Origin: Planctomycetota bacterium
Lineage (GTDB): Bacteria; Planctomycetota; Planctomycetia; Pirellulales; Pirellulaceae
Direction: 5' to 3'
Length of the DNA stretch: 12,493 nt
NCBI GenBank assembly: GCA_019347795.1
Contig: JAHWKS010000056.1
Location: 1-12,493, forward strand
This document shows positions 2,107-9,560 of this stretch, one piece after another; position 1 is the stretch's first letter; each line of letters opens with the position of its first letter. A program made the position numbers and the translations under genes. A model generated the notes under the pieces. The model did not search any database, had not been told where the DNA came from, and worked only from the letters and a program-made list of their open reading frames with translations.

Positions 2107-2145
2107 CGCCGACCTCGCCGAGTCTTGGGAGAAAATGCCGTGGGA

Positions 2146-3099
2146 ATGACTCGCCGCAAATCGCCGCGCGGGCGCGCGTTTACCCTGGTCGAACTGGTCG
2201 TGGTTCTCGCCATTATCGCGCTGTTGATGGCCTTGATCCTCCCCGCAGTCCAGTCAGCACGTGAGACGGCTCGCCGCGCGTCCTGCGCAAACAATGTCCG
2301 ACAGATTGGATTGGCGATTCAAAACTTCGAGGCGGCGCACCGTCACTTTCCACGCGCCTATTGCGGAAAAGTCTTCAGCCAACCTGATTGGTGTCTGTCG
2401 CCGTCCGGACAGATTGTCGGTTTCCTTGGCGATCAGTCCACGGCCGCGGATATTCGCGCCACAAGTCACTCGCTTCGGGATTCGGATTGGGATCGGTTGC
2501 CGATCAACGCCTTTCCCGTACTCTGGTGTCCCTCCGACGCGTTAGCCGAGGGCCGCGCGTCGAGCTATCGTTTTTGCCGCGGCGTTCTGCCGCTTTGGCC
2601 GAAAGACCCAGGAGGCGTCTTCCGAAGATTTCAACCGACACGCGCCAGTGACGTGACAGATGGTTATTCGCAGACGGCTTTTGTATCAGAACGCCTGATT
2701 GGGACCACTCGCGGCGCCGACGAACGCCGGGATGCGTTGGTTTCCCGTTCGCAGTCTCACGCGCGGCTAGCTGCTGATTGTGTCGCGATCAACGGGGGTG
2801 CGCCGGTAGGATTTCTGCAGTCGCCGCACGCGCCCCTCGGCAGCCGCTGGTTAAGCGGAAACTGGTTGCACGTAAGCTACTATCACTTCTCTCCGCCAAA
2901 CACCGCCTGGCGGGATTGCGTGGGCGATGGCGCCCACGTGGGGATGGCTCTCTTGTCAGCACGCAGTAACCACATCGGCGGCGTCCACGTGGGCTTCGGC
3001 GACGGGCGATCCGAATTCGTCGGCGATTACATCGACCTCGGCGTGTGGCGAGCTTGGGCAACTCGAGCGGGAGGCGAAGCAATTTCCCCTCGTGGGTAG
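2146..3099 (+). CDS. DUF1559 prepilin-like protein (type II pseudopilin N-terminus)
   Basis: A 317-residue protein of the DUF1559 (SBP_bac_10) family, greatly expanded in planctomycetes. The N-terminus is a class III prepilin signal: basic leader (residues 1-11), cleavage expected between Ala11 and Phe12, FTLVE with the key Glu16 (position 5 of the mature form), then a hydrophobic helix to about residue 35 and the conserved [15 protein letters not shown] segment. The C-terminus carries the family hallmark [10 protein letters not shown]...[15 protein letters not shown]. Residue -1 is Ala, not the common Gly. Start: GTG at 2140 lies 6-7 bases after GGGAGA and could be used; TTG at 2125 is also in frame; ATG at 2146 is taken as the conventional start. 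It follows the lipoprotein gene by 39 bp and precedes the next gene by 15 bp, so co-transcription is likely. The family is confident; DUF1559 protein function is not established. Confidence 0.92.
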
Positions 3100-3114: not shown

Positions 3115-4221
3115 ATGTTTGCTATTCCGGCCTTTCTTATCGTCGGGACGCTCGCCGCATCGCCGGATCAGTCGAGCGAGTTGGCCCGAGCGTCGGCATC
3201 CCTGGAATCGTACTTGACCCGTATCGCGGTCCTGCGAATCCGATATACGGAAACACACGCGCCCTCTGGCACGACGGACCTGCCAGCAGATCCTTTTGCC
3301 GAACCGAAGTTGTACGAAGAACTAAACTCAAACCGGGATATGCGGCGCCATCACGTGCTGCTGTACGCTGGGACTTCGCTGCGAATGGTCCATATCGACC
3401 GGAACTTGGATTCCACGGATGACGCTGGCGCGCATAAGGAGGAACTCGCGCTCCACAAGGGCAAGATAACCACGCTGGACCATACAAGAAAGCATTTCAA
3501 TCGGAGGTCCCCGTCCGTCGCTGTTCCGTTTCCATTTCTGCCGGTGGATCCTTTGGGGGTTCGGACGCTCGGTACGGTCGATACGCCAATTAGCGAATTT
3601 CTAAACCTACCTGGCGTTACGTCCTACGAGGGAACCGACGAGGTCGATGGAGAGACTGTCATTATCGTCAAAGTGGGCCCGAATATTCCCTCGCCGCCGC
3701 GACCAAGCACCTGGCCTGACAGTGCGTATTTGCGACTTTTCCTCGCTCCCGCTCATCGGTATTTGCCGGTGCGGACGGTCCTAGGCGGGGCGCTACGAAG
3801 AATGCCCGATGGAGAGTTTGAGATGTCGCTCGCTGAGTTTAAGCCAGTGCGCGACGCGGCCCGCGGCGACCACACTGTGCCGTTCCCACACAGCATGAGA
3901 ATCAGCTACCCGAACGGGAGATGGACATCATGGTCAATTCAAAGCGCTCTGATTAATCCCCCCGTTTCGAGCAGCGAGTTTGTATTGACCGCGCTCCCTG
4001 GTTACTCGGTTGCGGAGGAGGGACGCATGGCTGGTCTGCGTGGGGGCCCGGAACGTCGGGAGGAGCGAGTTCAGGAGTCGGTCGAAGAAGCACGGCGATT
4101 GCTTACAACCGTCGAACCGCCGCGCTCGTTACCAGCGCGAGGAATGTATCTGTGGGGTGTTGCAATTGGTGCAGGAGCCGCTTTGGCGCTGTTGCTCGTT
4201 TTCTTTTATTGTTGGAGGTAA
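3115..4221 (+). CDS. Secreted protein of unknown function with C-terminal membrane anchor
   Basis: A 368-residue protein I cannot assign with confidence. It starts with a short hydrophobic segment (residues 1-15, ending LAASP) that looks like a signal peptide with an unusually uncharged n-region. It ends with one hydrophobic helix (about 345-366) followed by CWR, so the bulk would face the periplasm and be tail-anchored. The first domain (about 20-150) begins LARASASLESYLTRIAVLRIRYTE in style, recalling planctomycete proteins with a LolA-like beta-sheet fold; this is only a resemblance. The region before the anchor is Arg/Glu-rich (about 310-335) and probably a helical stalk. It starts 15 bp after the prepilin gene and stops 2 bp before the Cys-rich peptide gene, so it is almost certainly in the same operon. 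It shares signal-peptide plus C-terminal-anchor topology with the C39 peptidase two genes downstream. The ORF is well supported, the function is not. Confidence 0.8.
   Translation: MFAIPAFLIVGTLAASPDQSSELARASASLESYLTRIAVLRIRYTETHAPSGTTDLPADPFAEPKLYEELNSNRDMRRHHVLLYAGTSLRMVHIDRNLDSTDDAGAHKEELALHKGKITTLDHTRKHFNRRSPSVAVPFPFLPVDPLGVRTLGTVDTPISEFLNLPGVTSYEGTDEVDGETVIIVKVGPNIPSPPRPSTWPDSAYLRLFLAPAHRYLPVRTVLGGALRRMPDGEFEMSLAEFKPVRDAARGDHTVPFPHSMRISYPNGRWTSWSIQSALINPPVSSSEFVLTALPGYSVAEEGRMAGLRGGPERREERVQESVEEARRLLTTVEPPRSLPARGMYLWGVAIGAGAALALLLVFFYCWR
4214..4218 (+). promoter_or_regulatory. Strong Shine-Dalgarno deciding the start of the Cys-rich peptide gene
   Basis: GGAGG, 5 bases before the ATG at 4224 and inside the last codons of the preceding gene. 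It excludes the longer in-frame reading from 4152, which would overlap the upstream gene's membrane helix. It also makes the start directly before the predicted signal peptide the best choice. Confidence 0.75.
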
Positions 4222-4223
4222 CG

Positions 4224-4652
4224 ATGATCATCTACCGAATCTTGTTTGCGGCATGCATGACTAGTATCTTCATGCTTGGGATAACGAGGGGCAAAACCGC
4301 TGGCGAGTTTTCCGCACTTAGTGCAAGTGAGACGGGGATGCTTTTCGGTGGTGCTGTCTGTGAGGAGCTCGACGGCCTTTCCGAGTGCGAACAGTGTGCG
4401 CAGGTTGAAGGCGAACCGGAAGAGGAAGACGATGTTTCAATCAGATGTTCGACTATCGGCGACAGGTACGTATGCTGGCCGATCTCGGGGCCATGCGTCG
4501 ACTGTACTCTCGTCAATGAACAAAAATGCGGCGGAGACGAGTTGCACTTTGAAGGATTAGAATGTGACGGCTTGGGCGTGCCCGTGCGCGCCTGCACACG
4601 GATAAAGAATGACGGGAGTTCGGTTAGCTGTGAAGACGAGTGCCCTGAGTGA
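4224..4652 (+). CDS. Secreted acidic Cys-rich peptide precursor with double-glycine leader
   Basis: A 142-residue small protein not recognised by family. Residues 1-20 form a Sec-type signal peptide (YRILFAACMTSIFMLGI hydrophobic core). Residues 32-43, LSASETGMLFGG, match the bacteriocin/double-glycine leader pattern LSxxE-x3-[LI]-x-G-G position by position (Leu -12, Ser -11, Glu -8, Leu -4, Gly-Gly -2/-1). Cleavage after Gly43 would release a 99-residue mature chain with 12 cysteines (46, 55, 58, 75, 84, 91, 94, 102, 114, 124, 136, 140) and an acidic loop EPEEEDD (64-70). This suggests up to six disulphides, made outside the cytoplasm. The next gene is a C39-type peptidase, the class that cuts double-glycine leaders, and overlaps by 4 bp (GTGA). 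The leader match and the partner gene are seen in the sequence. The processing, and whether the product is a toxin, signal or structural subunit, are inferred. Confidence 0.82.
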   Translation: MIIYRILFAACMTSIFMLGITRGKTAGEFSALSASETGMLFGGAVCEELDGLSECEQCAQVEGEPEEEDDVSIRCSTIGDRYVCWPISGPCVDCTLVNEQKCGGDELHFEGLECDGLGVPVRACTRIKNDGSSVSCEDECPE

Positions 4653-5320
4653 AACTGATGCGGGTTGCTCACTGGAAGATGAATTTCCGACTCAACTATC
4701 CTGCGCGCCGTCTACTTTGTCGAATTGCCGCCGTCTCATACGCCGTCACGTGGAGTGCTGTCGGCGTCGGGGAGGATAGCACGAGGGCCGATGCGCAGGT
4801 GTGCGGAGCGAACAGTTTGGCTCTCGCTGCTGCGTACGTAGCAGATATTCACGCGTCAGACATTTACTCGTTGCTTTCAGCCGAACGCGCACCCTTTTCG
4901 TTAGGCGATCTCGAAGACGCCGCGCGTAAAGCCGGTCTTCGCTCTTCCGTTTTGCGATGGAAGAACAAGGAGGCGGCGAGATTTCATTGTCCAGCGATTC
5001 TGCATGTTCGCGGTCAATCCTCTTCGACTCAGTGCGACCACTTCATTGTCTGTTTTGGTGAGAGCGAAGAGTTCCTCTGCGTCGCAGATTACCCGCGACC
5101 GCCAACTTTGGTCCCGCGCGACCACGTATTCGAGTACTGGGAAGGAGACGCTCTCTATGTGGACGATGCGACAGGCCGGCGGATAACACATCTTCAGATT
5201 AACTCGCAAGACTTCACGCGCCAACTGGCATTGGTAGCGATTGCTGTGTGCGTCGTTGCGTTGGCCGCAATACGGGGAGTCGCGTATTGGCGTCGTCAAG
5301 CGCGTCTTGACGATATTTAG
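4649..5320 (+). CDS. Stand-alone, tail-anchored C39-type cysteine peptidase
   Basis: A 223-residue predicted double-glycine-type (C39) peptidase. The N-terminus (1-41) has basic residues and a hydrophobic core ending near VGVGED, a likely signal peptide. The papain-like domain follows: VCGANSLALAA with catalytic Cys52, DHFIVCFG with His131, and VADYP with Asp147, giving a plausible Cys-His-Asp triad at normal spacing. A single C-terminal helix (about 193-214) is followed by RRQARL, so the positive-inside rule places the catalytic domain in the periplasm. There is no ABC-transporter part, unlike classical C39 exporters. The usual oxyanion Gln six residues before Cys is not obvious; Gln50 is two before it. 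The start is GTG at 4649, overlapping the previous stop by 4 bp; ATG at 4658 is an alternative. The inferred substrate is the double-glycine precursor encoded just upstream. The family call is good; activity is untested. Confidence 0.83.
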   Translation: MKLMRVAHWKMNFRLNYPARRLLCRIAAVSYAVTWSAVGVGEDSTRADAQVCGANSLALAAAYVADIHASDIYSLLSAERAPFSLGDLEDAARKAGLRSSVLRWKNKEAARFHCPAILHVRGQSSSTQCDHFIVCFGESEEFLCVADYPRPPTLVPRDHVFEYWEGDALYVDDATGRRITHLQINSQDFTRQLALVAIAVCVVALAAIRGVAYWRRQARLDDI

Positions 5321-5367: not shown

Positions 5368-5493
5368 ATGCGACACGCTGCACTCTTCCTGCTGCCGGTG
5401 ATCCTCGCCATCAGCGTGGCGATCGCTTTGGTCGGTCAAGCCGGTGGTTGTGCCTGCGAAACTCGATGCTCCGAAAAAGCTTCTCAAGGTTGA
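5368..5493 (+). other. Signal-peptide reading frame of the broken DUF1573 gene
   Basis: A 41-codon frame starting at ATG 5368 whose first 26 residues form a typical Sec signal peptide (Arg2 n-region, long hydrophobic core, LVGQAG end). After about position 5445 the frame becomes low-plausibility Cys-rich sequence and stops at 5491-5493, while the next frame continues with VVPAKLDAPKKL. It is best read as the displaced N-terminus of the downstream DUF1573 protein. A free-standing small secreted peptide is possible but less likely. Confidence 0.5.
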
Positions 5494-5899
5494 TGGGAGC
5501 GAGGTCCCGCGGGGGCAGCCGGCGGAGGTTGTGTTTCAACTGAGCAATGAAGGAAACCTTGATGTTCAGATTAAGGAGGTTTCCAGTAGCTGTTCGTGTT
5601 TGGTGCCATCACAGATGAAGGGCCGTACAATTAGAGCCGGCGAGCAGATGCCGTTTAAGGTGCTTGTTTCCATCCCGCAGGCCGGAACACAGACGCGGAC
5701 TTTAATGGTGTTCCACAATGGACGCGGCAGTCCATTAGTGTTACAAGTTCAGGTTTCTGGCGCTGTACGTGTTCCATTTGTCGCGAAAGTCGTGAACCCG
5801 GTGACTTTTTTTGACGATCTATCACAGATGCGCGGCGAACAGAGTATCGTCGTGAAGACGGTCGAGAATCTCGGAGAGCCTCCGTGGTTGAATGCTTAG
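5444..5899 (+). CDS. DUF1573 domain segment (second frame of the interrupted gene)
   Basis: A 151-residue frame if read from GTG at 5444. It contains a recognisable DUF1573/ASH-type domain: VFQLSNEGNLDVQIKEVSSS (family pattern of N-x-G-x3-L-x-I-x2-V), followed by the Cys motif SCSC instead of the usual SCGC, then RAGEQMPFKVLVSIPQ. A second beta-rich segment begins at PFVAKVVNPVTFFDDLS. As it stands it has no signal peptide or lipobox, although such domains are normally exported and a perfect signal peptide lies just upstream in another frame. No Shine-Dalgarno is visible before 5444. The frame ends in PPWLNA and the following sequence continues naturally in the next frame. It is probably part of one broken or mis-sequenced gene rather than an independent cytosolic protein. 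Confidence 0.6.
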   Translation: MVVPAKLDAPKKLLKVDGSEVPRGQPAEVVFQLSNEGNLDVQIKEVSSSCSCLVPSQMKGRTIRAGEQMPFKVLVSIPQAGTQTRTLMVFHNGRGSPLVLQVQVSGAVRVPFVAKVVNPVTFFDDLSQMRGEQSIVVKTVENLGEPPWLNA

Positions 5900-6401
5900 C
5901 GCGCAACATCCGAGCATTAAAATCACGCGGCAGGAGGTAGAGGAGGCGCCAACAGCCGACGCGGGACTCGTTCGCCGGACGTACGAGTACGCGGTGAGTT
6001 GGCGCGAAGTTACCGACGAGCGCATCGTCCGGGCGAGGATCTACACACATCCCACCTCTGAGGCTGAGCCAAGGGCGTATATCGGTACCGTTCTGGCGTT
6101 GGCCAACCCCCCGCAATTTCACCCGAAAGCGGTGTATTTGGAAGATGGTCGCGTGGAACAGGATGTTGTGATCTTCCGCGCGTCCGGGAACGGCTTCGCT
6201 CGGTCGTGGAGAATCGCTGACCAAGCCATATTGCCGGACTGGTTCTTCACTGAGTGGAGCATGGAAGACGGAAAGCTGATGTTGCGAGTTGCCTTGAAGG
6301 ACGGCTATCAGATCGGCGACGCGGCGCATTTTCGAATTCCCCTTGTCCGCGACGACGGCGCCGCGGACGAGTTACAAATCGCCGCATTTCCGGCCCGCTG
6401 A
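5892..6401 (+). CDS. C-terminal segment of the interrupted DUF1573 protein
   Basis: A 169-residue frame beginning at ATG 5892, which overlaps the preceding stop codon by 8 bases (ATGCTTAG). It is predicted to be beta-rich, with SIKITRQEVEEAP, RRTYEYAVSWREV and an ending PLVRDDGAADELQIAAFP, as in the strand-rich C-terminal halves of planctomycete DUF1573-type proteins. It has no signal peptide, no membrane helix and no clear Shine-Dalgarno. Translational coupling through the overlap is possible. The continuity of ...EPPWL / LSAQHPSIKI across the junction favours a frameshift inside one longer protein. It ends 16 bp from the stop of the convergent fhcB gene, so it closes the operon. The function is unknown. 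Confidence 0.55.
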   Translation: MLSAQHPSIKITRQEVEEAPTADAGLVRRTYEYAVSWREVTDERIVRARIYTHPTSEAEPRAYIGTVLALANPPQFHPKAVYLEDGRVEQDVVIFRASGNGFARSWRIADQAILPDWFFTEWSMEDGKLMLRVALKDGYQIGDAAHFRIPLVRDDGAADELQIAAFPAR

Positions 6402-6417: not shown

Positions 6418-7755
6418 TCAATGCGGACAGATCATCGGCCTGAGACGATCAACGATTGCGTCGAGCACTTCCGCGTCGCTGGGGTAGTCGCTGGGGAGGA
6501 TGGTTCGCAGCGGGATGGGCGTTTCATCCATCCGGTAGGCGGTTCCCGGGAGGTGGACGCCGTAGACGGCGGTGGTGAAGGCGACGGTGGGCGGGAAGGG
6601 GCAGGTTTCGGTCGGGTAGTCGAGGACGATTGTCGGGATGCGGCGGAGCTGCTCTTGTGCCGCGGGCGATAGTTGCTCCACCCCTTCGCTCCCCACGAGG
6701 AGGCAGGCGTCAGTTTCGCCTCGCTCCAGCACTTCGTTCGCGGAATATTCGCCGGGGTTGTAGCGCGGGTAGCCGCGGGCGAGGTTCACGCTGAAGGGAA
6801 ACCCCGTCGTCCAGCAGAGGACGCTGTCGGCGCCCGCCACGTCGCCCGGCATGCGCATCCGCCGGGCGTAGAACCGCGTGTGCCGGTTGAGGTCGGTCAC
6901 CAGCCGCAACAGCGCCTCCACATTCGCGTGCGGAGTACCGTGCCGGGTGAGTCCCAGCCCGAAGTAGACGATGCCCGATCGGCACGACGTCATGCGGTCG
7001 GCCAGTTTTCGCAGGTCCTCGATGCCGGGACTGTCGGGAACATCGACTCCCGCAACCATGGCCCGCAAGGTCCAGAGGGCGTCGAAGTCGCCGCCGGGCG
7101 GGATCTGGAGGAACCAATCGACCTGCTCGGTCGTCTCCGTCGGCCGCACGTCCACGGCGACGACGTACCGATCCGCGCGTCCTCCCGGCAGAAACATCCC
7201 CGGCGGATCGACCGAGTACCGCTCGAAGTGCCGCGGATGGCTCTTCACCGGGTTGGAGCCCCAGAAGAGCACCAGGTTGCAGCGGTTCTTCGCTTCGCCG
7301 AGGCTGCACGTGCTTTCCCCCGCCTGCTGAAAGGCCATGATCGACGGGGCATGGCAGCGAGAGGCCGTGGTGTCGATGGTCGCCCCGATTCGGTCCGCCA
7401 GCCGCACCGCCGCCCGCTGCCCGGGCGTGCTGCTCCGCGAGAGTCCGTAGATGAGCGGCGCCCGGGACTGCGACAGAATGCGGGCCGCCTCCTCAACCGC
7501 CGTCTCGAAGCTGGCCGCCTCTCCCGCCATCTGCGTCGCGGGGGGCTGCTGCGTGTTTTGCGCCAAGAGCCACGGCTCGGCCAACTCGCAGGCGCCCTCC
7601 GTTTCGACGACCCGGCCCTCGCGAACGGTGATCCGCAGATCGTCGCACACGCACCCGCAGATAGTGCAGGCGACGTTCTCAATCATTTTCTCCGACGACG
7701 GAGGCCGCGGCGCCGCTTCGGATTCCATGTCGTTTCCGTTCCGCATCGGCGCCAT
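6418..7755 (-). CDS. fhcB: Formylmethanofuran dehydrogenase / formyltransferase-hydrolase subunit B
   Basis: A 445-residue protein of the FwdB/FmdB/FhcB family. In bacteria that use tetrahydromethanopterin for C1 transfer, FhcB is part of the Fhc complex, which converts formyl-H4MPT via a methanofuran analogue to formate. Visible features are the N-terminal motif CTICGCVCDDL with Cys30, Cys33, Cys37 and a later Cys56 (a 4Fe-4S-type arrangement), ASRCHAPS with Cys134 at the position of the metal-ligand loop in archaeal homologues, and FWGSNPVKSHPRHFERY. Bacterial FhcB is generally regarded as non-catalytic; I cannot decide that here. The start is uncertain among ATGs at 7755, 7746, 7728 and 7686, none with a strong Shine-Dalgarno; the conserved part begins just after 7686. 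No fhcA, fhcD or fhcC lies in the window. It lies 27 bp downstream of a secreted-protein gene and probably shares its transcript. Confidence 0.92.
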   Translation of the reverse strand: MAPMRNGNDMESEAAPRPPSSEKMIENVACTICGCVCDDLRITVREGRVVETEGACELAEPWLLAQNTQQPPATQMAGEAASFETAVEEAARILSQSRAPLIYGLSRSSTPGQRAAVRLADRIGATIDTTASRCHAPSIMAFQQAGESTCSLGEAKNRCNLVLFWGSNPVKSHPRHFERYSVDPPGMFLPGGRADRYVVAVDVRPTETTEQVDWFLQIPPGGDFDALWTLRAMVAGVDVPDSPGIEDLRKLADRMTSCRSGIVYFGLGLTRHGTPHANVEALLRLVTDLNRHTRFYARRMRMPGDVAGADSVLCWTTGFPFSVNLARGYPRYNPGEYSANEVLERGETDACLLVGSEGVEQLSPAAQEQLRRIPTIVLDYPTETCPFPPTVAFTTAVYGVHLPGTAYRMDETPIPLRTILPSDYPSDAEVLDAIVDRLRPMICPH

Positions 7756-8956: not shown

Positions 8957-9301
8957 TCAGGGGCTCGCCGGTGGTTGAAGGATCGCGACCACCGCGGACA
9001 GCACACGCGCGAAGACAGCCGGGGTAAGCACACCGACTGAGCGGATCATCAACCCGGAATGAGCCGTAAACAACTTCCCAGGTCGGGCAAAGCTGGCAAC
9101 CCGCAGGCCGCCCGATGCGAAGCCGGCCGGGTCGAGCGGTATTGCCGCCGGATCACCGTAGGGGCTACTGGTGATTTGGCAGAGGATCCGATCGCCACGC
9201 CCGGCGTCCGCGAGACAGACGGCGGGCCGGACCTTCGACCGCGACAGGTCTGAAAAAGGGAACGGGACCAAGACTACTTCCCCGGCTGTAGGTGTGACCA
9301 C
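8957..9301 (-). CDS. mazF: MazF/PemK-family toxin (endoribonuclease) of a type II toxin-antitoxin pair
   Basis: A 114-residue protein with MazF/PemK features: GEVVLVPFPFSDLS (about 7-20), the signature SKVRP (22-26) with the conserved Arg25, and QITSSPYGD (42-50) with the conserved Thr/Ser of the active-site region. Members are usually sequence-specific mRNA interferases, inhibited by the cognate antitoxin. Length is normal. The start is GTG at 9301, and the gene overlaps the 3' end of the antitoxin gene by 28 bp, so translation is probably coupled. It is intact. The target sequence cannot be deduced. The family call is confident; activity is inferred. Confidence 0.88.
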   Translation of the reverse strand: MVTPTAGEVVLVPFPFSDLSRSKVRPAVCLADAGRGDRILCQITSSPYGDPAAIPLDPAGFASGGLRVASFARPGKLFTAHSGLMIRSVGVLTPAVFARVLSAVVAILQPPASP

Positions 9302-9492
9302 GCCGCGTCCTCCTCCGGCCGGAGCCAGTCTGCCGCCAGGGCCGCCTCGGCGAGCAACGCGGCCTCGCCTGGTACGGCGGCCGGTTCTTCCAGCACTGTC
9401 ACTAACGCACGGCGAGGACCGGCCACGTGGACCTCACCGAGCAACTGAACCCGACCCGCAGCATCAACAATCGCCTCAACTGTTTGGATCAT
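9274..9492 (-). CDS. Antitoxin partner of the MazF-like toxin
   Basis: A 72-residue protein directly upstream of and overlapping the toxin gene. The N-terminal half, MIQTVEAIVDAAGRVQLLGE, resembles the short DNA-binding or dimerisation part of antitoxins of the type beginning M-x-T-I-E-A-x-V-D-x-x-G. The C-terminal EAALAADWLRPEEDAAW (about 52-68) is an acidic amphipathic segment typical of the toxin-wrapping tail (sExALAeDWxrpEEdeAW-type ending). ATG 9492 is chosen because GGAGG (9499-9503 on the minus strand) lies exactly 6 bases upstream; an in-frame ATG at 9507 would swallow that site. Antitoxins of this kind normally repress their own operon, and a promoter with a repeated 5-base element lies 70-100 bp upstream. 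It is not a classical MazE by sequence. The role is inferred from context and tail composition. Confidence 0.82.
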   Translation of the reverse strand: MIQTVEAIVDAAGRVQLLGEVHVAGPRRALVTVLEEPAAVPGEAALLAEAALAADWLRPEEDAAWSHLQPGK

Positions 9493-9560
9493 TCGACACC
9501 TCCACAAGCATTCTACCGAACTGTAGCCCCCAAGCCAGGGCGACGATCCACGTCACCGCT

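Follow-up and report, generated by a model that had tools for sequence, protein, structure and literature searches.

The window analysed here, a 12,493-nucleotide stretch of a planctomycete contig of the order Pirellulales (JAHWKS010000056.1), belongs to a 5.9-Mb assembly that is 72% complete and carries on its plus strand a small precursor gene followed by a gene for a stand-alone C39 peptidase. The precursor gene (4224..4652; ATG at 4224, TGA stop at 4650-4652) has the ribosome-binding-site-like sequence GGAGG five bases 5' of its start codon (4214..4218) and encodes a 142-aa protein made up of a membrane or signal segment, a double-glycine leader and a Cys-rich, acidic core. Its hydrophobic segment (about residues 6-20; 4239..4283), preceded by one Lys/Arg and by no Asp/Glu, is followed by the leader motif LSASETGMLFGG (residues 32-43; 4317..4352), and cleavage is predicted after residue 43, between positions 4352 and 4353. 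The N-terminal part as a whole reads MIIYRILFAACMTSIFMLGITRGKTAGEFSALSASETGMLFGG and leads into a 99-residue core, the predicted mature protein (4353..4649), which has 12 Cys and 6 Lys/Arg against 25 Asp/Glu; this acidity speaks against a classical cationic bacteriocin. The first-pass annotation had recognized a double-glycine leader at residues 32-43, and those residues do carry a hydrophobic residue at -12, an acidic one at -8, a hydrophobic one at -4 and Gly-Gly, behind the hydrophobic segment. No Pfam or NCBIfam family matched the precursor at E<=1, and a search of 5.8 billion proteins that requires shared five-residue words returned ten word-sharing candidates, none at E<=1.

The peptidase gene (4649..5320, plus strand; 223 aa) overlaps the precursor gene by 4 bp and has a GTG start, with an ATG at 4658 as a possible alternative. 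Its C39 domain spans 4790..5170 and includes the codons for Cys52 (4802-4804), His131 (5039-5041) and Asp147 (5087-5089); a C-terminal membrane segment (residues 192-208; 5222..5272) precedes a basic tail. Directly upstream of the precursor, on the same strand, lies a gene for a 368-aa protein with a C-terminal membrane segment (3115..4221) that lacks a Pfam match. Neighbours of similar size and build occur at other C39 loci, and a comparison with 461 neighbouring ORFs returned no sequence relative of this protein but itself; its single-sequence fold model (mean pLDDT 37) was discarded. Further upstream is a DUF1559 prepilin-like protein (2125..3099, plus strand; PF07596 E 7.3e-38, PF07963 E 2.5e-6), and downstream of the peptidase is an ORF with a DUF1573 domain (5444..5899, plus strand; PF07610 E 6.8e-14). 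The DUF1573 region is split across frames between 5367 and 6401, with a signal-like start at about 5367, the DUF1573 ORF, and an ORF at 5892-6401 without a family; the gene is broken, or else the assembly contains errors here. The DUF1559 and DUF1573 genes, like the relatives of the window, point to Planctomycetota. On the minus strand, a 445-aa ORF (6418-7755) without a Pfam match at 1e-3 presumably resembles a formylmethanofuran dehydrogenase subunit, and a PemK/MazF-like toxin gene (8957-9507; PF02452 E 9.9e-7) adjoins a 77-aa gene without a family, with which it possibly forms a toxin-antitoxin pair.

C39 peptidases are understood to be cytosolic parts of ABC exporters, with the leaders they recognize being cut before or during export. 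The window peptidase matches PF03412 at E 2.6e-10, scoring 40.7 bits where the cut-off is 22, and this is its sole Pfam domain; the fused transmembrane and ATPase domains of a C39-ABC exporter (PCAT/AMS) are absent. Its relatives comprise P0002, P0003 and three weaker sequences (P0001 is the window's own protein), all six members of the resulting alignment A2 match PF03412 at E<=0.001, and profile searches of genome contigs for further relatives yielded none in the first round (A1) and two loci in the second. Cys52, His131 and Asp147 sit in columns invariant across the window protein, P0002 and P0003, and the corresponding residues were found in the aligned C39 domains of 136 loci described below at 123/125 (Cys), 135/136 (His) and 130/135 (Asp), in agreement with the first reading of the overlapping gene as a C39 peptidase. 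A structural model built from six sequences (pLDDT 80 on average and above 90 over most of the C39 domain) has PCAT1 and ComA as its top matches in the PDB, with LahT also among the best, and superimposes on 6mpz, a double-glycine protease with its leader, at a TM score of 0.70 normalised to the target and an rmsd of 2.1. The model also contains an N-terminal helix (residues 17-38) at low confidence. No exporter gene was seen near the pair, as had been pointed out earlier, and the single PF03412 match in the 72%-complete assembly is the window C39 gene itself.

Matches to PF03412 were found in 143 of 396 genomes of the order. The 116 order-level loci that were compared consist of 100 chosen among the matches listed (open frames below 650 aa with E values no weaker than 5.8e-9; anything weaker was passed over, as were a few that were listed), 15 of 19 from another search, and the window; the four omitted from the 19 were the window, which was added separately, and three frames of 764, 818 and 822 aa. 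A further 20 loci from outside the order, ten from the same class and ten from other classes, were picked by hand and are not a random sample; they include L187, whose frame is 723 aa long. The total is thus 136 C39 loci, mostly stand-alone, all from Planctomycetota, and many stopping at contig ends. These were scanned for ORFs of at most 320 aa, within 4 kb, bearing the motif [LIVMF][STNDAGE]xx[EDNQ]xxx[LIVMA]xG[GAS], a hydrophobic 12-mer located 8-40 residues ahead of the cut and at least four Cys behind it. The motif was fixed at order level after examples had been seen, and was frozen before it was applied outside the order.

At order level, this strict scan identified a precursor on the strand of the C39 gene at 21 of 116 loci, the window included, and on the opposite strand at none of the 116. 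It also returned no match on either strand of 399,975 bp of control DNA (20 stretches of 20 kb, drawn from 19 of the genomes in the set), indicating a pairing beyond chance. With the frozen motif, 4/10 same-class loci (five ORFs) and 0/10 loci from other classes had a precursor. In total, 27 ORFs at 25/136 loci, from 20 genomes and nine families, were obtained with the window counted in; because relatives and paralogues are present among the loci and the precursors, the counts are not independent events. The scan overlooks some evident precursors (e.g., those of L031, L144 and L190), and in the isolate Singulisphaera sp. GP187 (Isosphaerales) the leader VSQDEAAGIHGA-QC was recognized by eye upstream of a C39 gene. 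Co-occurrence of double-glycine-leader ORFs with C39 homologues, whose absence from related genomes the first-pass annotation had named as grounds for abandoning its proposal, is therefore present at these 25 loci and in Singulisphaera. The precursor cores are Cys-rich and 50-166 residues long. When 10 of the 27 strict precursors were scanned, none received a Pfam or NCBIfam assignment above cut-off: NF033456 touches the leader of L170 (residues 32-44) at E 5e-4, below its cut-off, TIGR04149 touches L052 at E 0.11, and L130 has weak matches to unrelated families. Five loci (L072, L098, L170, L173 and L176) have two precursor-like ORFs each, which suggests duplication and diversification of Cys-rich proteins. 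In the precursors of L099, L117 and L119, Ala-Gly replaces Gly-Gly (e.g., VDTHETVSLMAG-C), so that the strict scan overlooks them; the C39 genes adjoining them are 75-87% identical.

The leader consensus also emerged from a procedure that makes no use of the motif. Small, N-terminally hydrophobic, Cys-rich ORFs near C39 genes were collected (79 ORFs from 66/136 loci), and 61 of these could be aligned solely on the earliest suitable G[GAS] that precedes a Cys; some of the 61 are apparently spurious and some are paralogues, all were kept, and they overlap the strict matches, so that the two tests are not independent. Hydrophobic residues (LIVMF) occupy -12 in 38/61 (shuffle mean 16.6), Asp/Glu occupies -8 in 30/61 (5.6) and LIVM occupies -4 in 42/61 (14.6), while all three positions agree in 25/61, against 0.5 expected; in 5000 shuffles, not one of these four counts was attained. 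Ser, Thr or Asn is found at -11 in 49% of the anchored ORFs. The same procedure gave 12 ORFs in control DNA, two of them anchored, and, at the C39 loci, 13 ORFs on the opposite strand, five of them anchored, in neither case with any ORF that has all three positions.

Two kinds of stand-alone C39 peptidase can be distinguished at these loci. An active site of the CGAA type occurs at 37 loci, in 36 of which a Gln lies six residues upstream of the catalytic Cys, a residue that has been proposed as the oxyanion holder. No Gln was found at that position in any of the 23 scorable peptidases with a strict partner, where Trp is the commonest residue (9/23) and the window protein has Arg. A strict double-glycine partner is present at 25 of the 99 other loci but at none of the 37 CGAA-type loci (Fisher p 2.6e-4), and lax G[GAS] anchoring finds a partner at 54/99 versus 2/37; the two latter are L062 and L106, and L106 has the active site CGAACLY and a neighbour with TTMLGG. 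Among the 74 of 99 non-CGAA loci without a strict partner, some lack one because of contig ends and some have degenerate leaders. In LahT, the Gln is placed 4.3 A from the thiohemiacetal oxygen and the catalytic His is put forward for the oxyanion role (PMC6363468), so that loss of the Gln need not abolish activity. By their active-site sequences, the Gln-less partnered peptidases form a separate subfamily, in which the missing Gln is a point against certainty and not a fatal one. At six loci (L032, L037, L038, L039, L044 and L172), C39 ORFs of 316-405 aa accompany precursors whose leaders keep just hydrophobic-x-Gly-Gly/Ala; in such half-motif precursors (e.g., L032, L037, L038 and L172) the remnant is the C-terminal half of the leader and comes soon after the hydrophobic segment. 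Some half-motif loci adjoin a MauE-like gene (PF07291 E 6.3e-22 in L032), and of 76 loci classed as neither strict nor CGAA, 13 have a CxCFG-type pattern nearby.

The precursor and the C39 peptidase of the window are read here as a post-export protein-maturation cassette, with cleavage predicted after Gly-Gly outside the membrane, a reading to which we assign a probability of roughly three in four. The precursor would be inserted via Sec and remain tethered by its N-terminus, in which a signal or signal anchor some 15 residues long is followed by a spacer; the Cys-rich part would then lie outside the cytoplasmic membrane. The peptidase, held outside by its own signal or membrane segment, would then recognize a leader with a hydrophobic residue at -12, a small or polar one at -11, an acidic one at -8, a hydrophobic one at -4, Gly at -2 and Gly, Ala or Ser at -1, and cleavage behind the leader would release the Cys-rich domain. 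The mature product may be a Cys-rich protein that is secreted or stays at the surface, and its disulphides may already have formed when it is released. Removal of the leader after export had been suggested from the window's sequence alone, and the recurrence of the pair, the leader consensus and the membrane segments described below lend it comparative support.

A hydrophobic segment is present in 27/27 strict precursors, as the scan criterion dictates. It is preceded by at least one Lys/Arg in 27/27, start codons having been picked with a preference for Lys/Arg, and by no Asp/Glu in 26/27. Its end lies 18-28 residues before the cut in 26/27 precursors and 12 residues before it in the remaining one. 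The strongest competing explanation, to which perhaps one chance in eight might be given, is that signal peptidase simply removes the N-terminus as a conventional signal peptide, in which case the LSxxE...GG likeness would be incidental and the C39 protein would act elsewhere, perhaps in the manner of FapD. Close to where the hydrophobic segment ends, 9/27 precursors do have a signal-peptidase-like A/V/S/T-x-A site, a laxer small-x-small site occurs in 25/27, and the target of the exported C39 peptidase of the Fap system is reported as unclear (PMC5557850, PMC6173800). Against this stand the position-specific nature of the consensus, well beyond the hydrophobic segment at that 18-28-residue spacing, and the blank outcome of the strict scan both in 400 kb of control DNA and at the 37 CGAA-type loci. 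Since the spacer is of this length in 26/27 and an A/V/S/T-x-A site is absent in 18/27, many precursors are probably tethered until the Gly-Gly cut, though, to judge from the sites present, signal peptidase may act earlier on some of them.

For the peptidases, a hydrophobic segment lies ahead of the active-site Cys in 21 of 25 with a strict partner; in the remaining four (L076, L100, L175 and the window) no N-terminal segment exceeds the threshold, that of the window peptidase being weak, with a 12-mer mean of 1.82. The peptidases of L071, L110, L126 and the window have a C-terminal hydrophobic segment with a basic tail, which by the positive-inside rule places the preceding domain outside. 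L099 and L118 are natural fusions in which a signal-like start, a large domain, a membrane segment, a basic loop, a hydrophobic segment and the C39 domain follow one another; this membrane hairpin puts the C39 domain outside and indicates the likely topology of the peptidase. These topological conclusions apply to peptidases other than multi-segment ones such as that of L113. The earlier proposal that both proteins are exported is thus upheld as regards hydrophobic segments in the precursors and in most partnered peptidases, while passage through Sec is a prediction and the N-terminal segment of the window peptidase falls short of the threshold.

It is improbable, and clearly more so than signal-peptidase processing, that a conventional C39-ABC exporter encoded elsewhere exports the precursors and cuts them from the cytoplasm, with the stand-alone C39 protein as an accessory. 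Two genomes with strict precursors (G001 and G051) do have additional C39 matches in frames that are of exporter size, by size alone (780 and 755 aa), and the incompleteness of the window assembly leaves room for such a gene. But in five near-complete genomes with strict precursors (G068, G072, G119, G149 and G167; 93-99% complete) the single PF03412 match at E<=0.001 is the stand-alone gene, and thus no C39-ABC exporter that could do the cutting was detected there. The precursors, moreover, have their hydrophobic segment, itself a scan criterion, at the spacing given above before the cut, whereas classical double-glycine leaders are not known to be preceded by one. That the precursors are lipoproteins or prepilins, with Gly-Gly belonging to another processing site, is very improbable: the core of L121 begins with Cys right after Gly-Gly and many others have Cys at +2 or +3, but 12-28 residues separate the end of the hydrophobic segment from the cut, whereas in lipobox and prepilin precursors that segment adjoins or follows the cut, and the lipoprotein reading was rejected with Cys at +1 in 1/27.

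Post-export maturation by the adjacent peptidase therefore remains the preferred reading of the window. Beyond the window, there are good grounds, slightly weaker than those for the pair itself, to expect a route widespread among planctomycetes, in which a divergent, Gln-less C39 subfamily would cleave Sec-inserted, membrane-tethered precursors behind their canonical double-glycine leaders and so set them free at the outer side of the cytoplasmic membrane. If this is true, the order of events would be reversed relative to C39-ABC exporters, and canonical substrates would be supplied for exported C39 peptidases. Likely substrate and enzyme are here adjacent and recurrent, with the classical recognition motif, so that what exported C39 peptidases cut becomes directly testable through the gene pair; the pairs also suggest that planctomycetes secrete Cys-rich proteins of various kinds. 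In the literature searched, in which subscription journals are poorly covered, no paper was recognized that describes, for planctomycetes, an exported C39 peptidase together with a double-glycine precursor exported by Sec. To the first-pass annotation no system in which the steps follow one another in this way was known; a partial precedent is FapD, the one exported C39 peptidase found, which was reported without a known substrate. FapD is encoded in the functional-amyloid operon (fap) of Pseudomonas and is a periplasmic C39 peptidase with a Sec signal peptide and a required catalytic Cys (PMC5557850, PMC6173800). Its authors saw no canonical C39 leader in the Fap proteins, and name FapE and FapF, which have GG/GA motifs, as candidate targets while leaving the target open (PMC5557850, PMC6173800).

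Compared with FapD by its published description, the planctomycete peptidases share the stand-alone and, as predicted for them, exported state, but their loci have canonical leaders in adjacent precursors where the Fap proteins have none; a general Pfam scan of 16 window ORF segments, which was not a targeted search for FapF or FapC, gave no Fap-named match. With class II bacteriocin, microcin and RiPP precursors (NF033456, TIGR04149) the planctomycete precursors have the double-glycine leader motif in common, but differ in the hydrophobic segment before the leader and in their long Cys-rich cores, acidic in the window. Likewise, the peptidases resemble PCAT1, ComA and LahT (PDB 4ry2, 6v9z, 3k8u and 6mpz) in fold, in the Cys, His and Asp residues and in the -12, -4 and Gly-Gly positions of the leader, whereas they lack an attached or nearby ABC transporter and the Gln at -6, are predicted to be membrane-tethered or exported instead of cytosolic, and are paired with precursors that have a membrane segment of their own.
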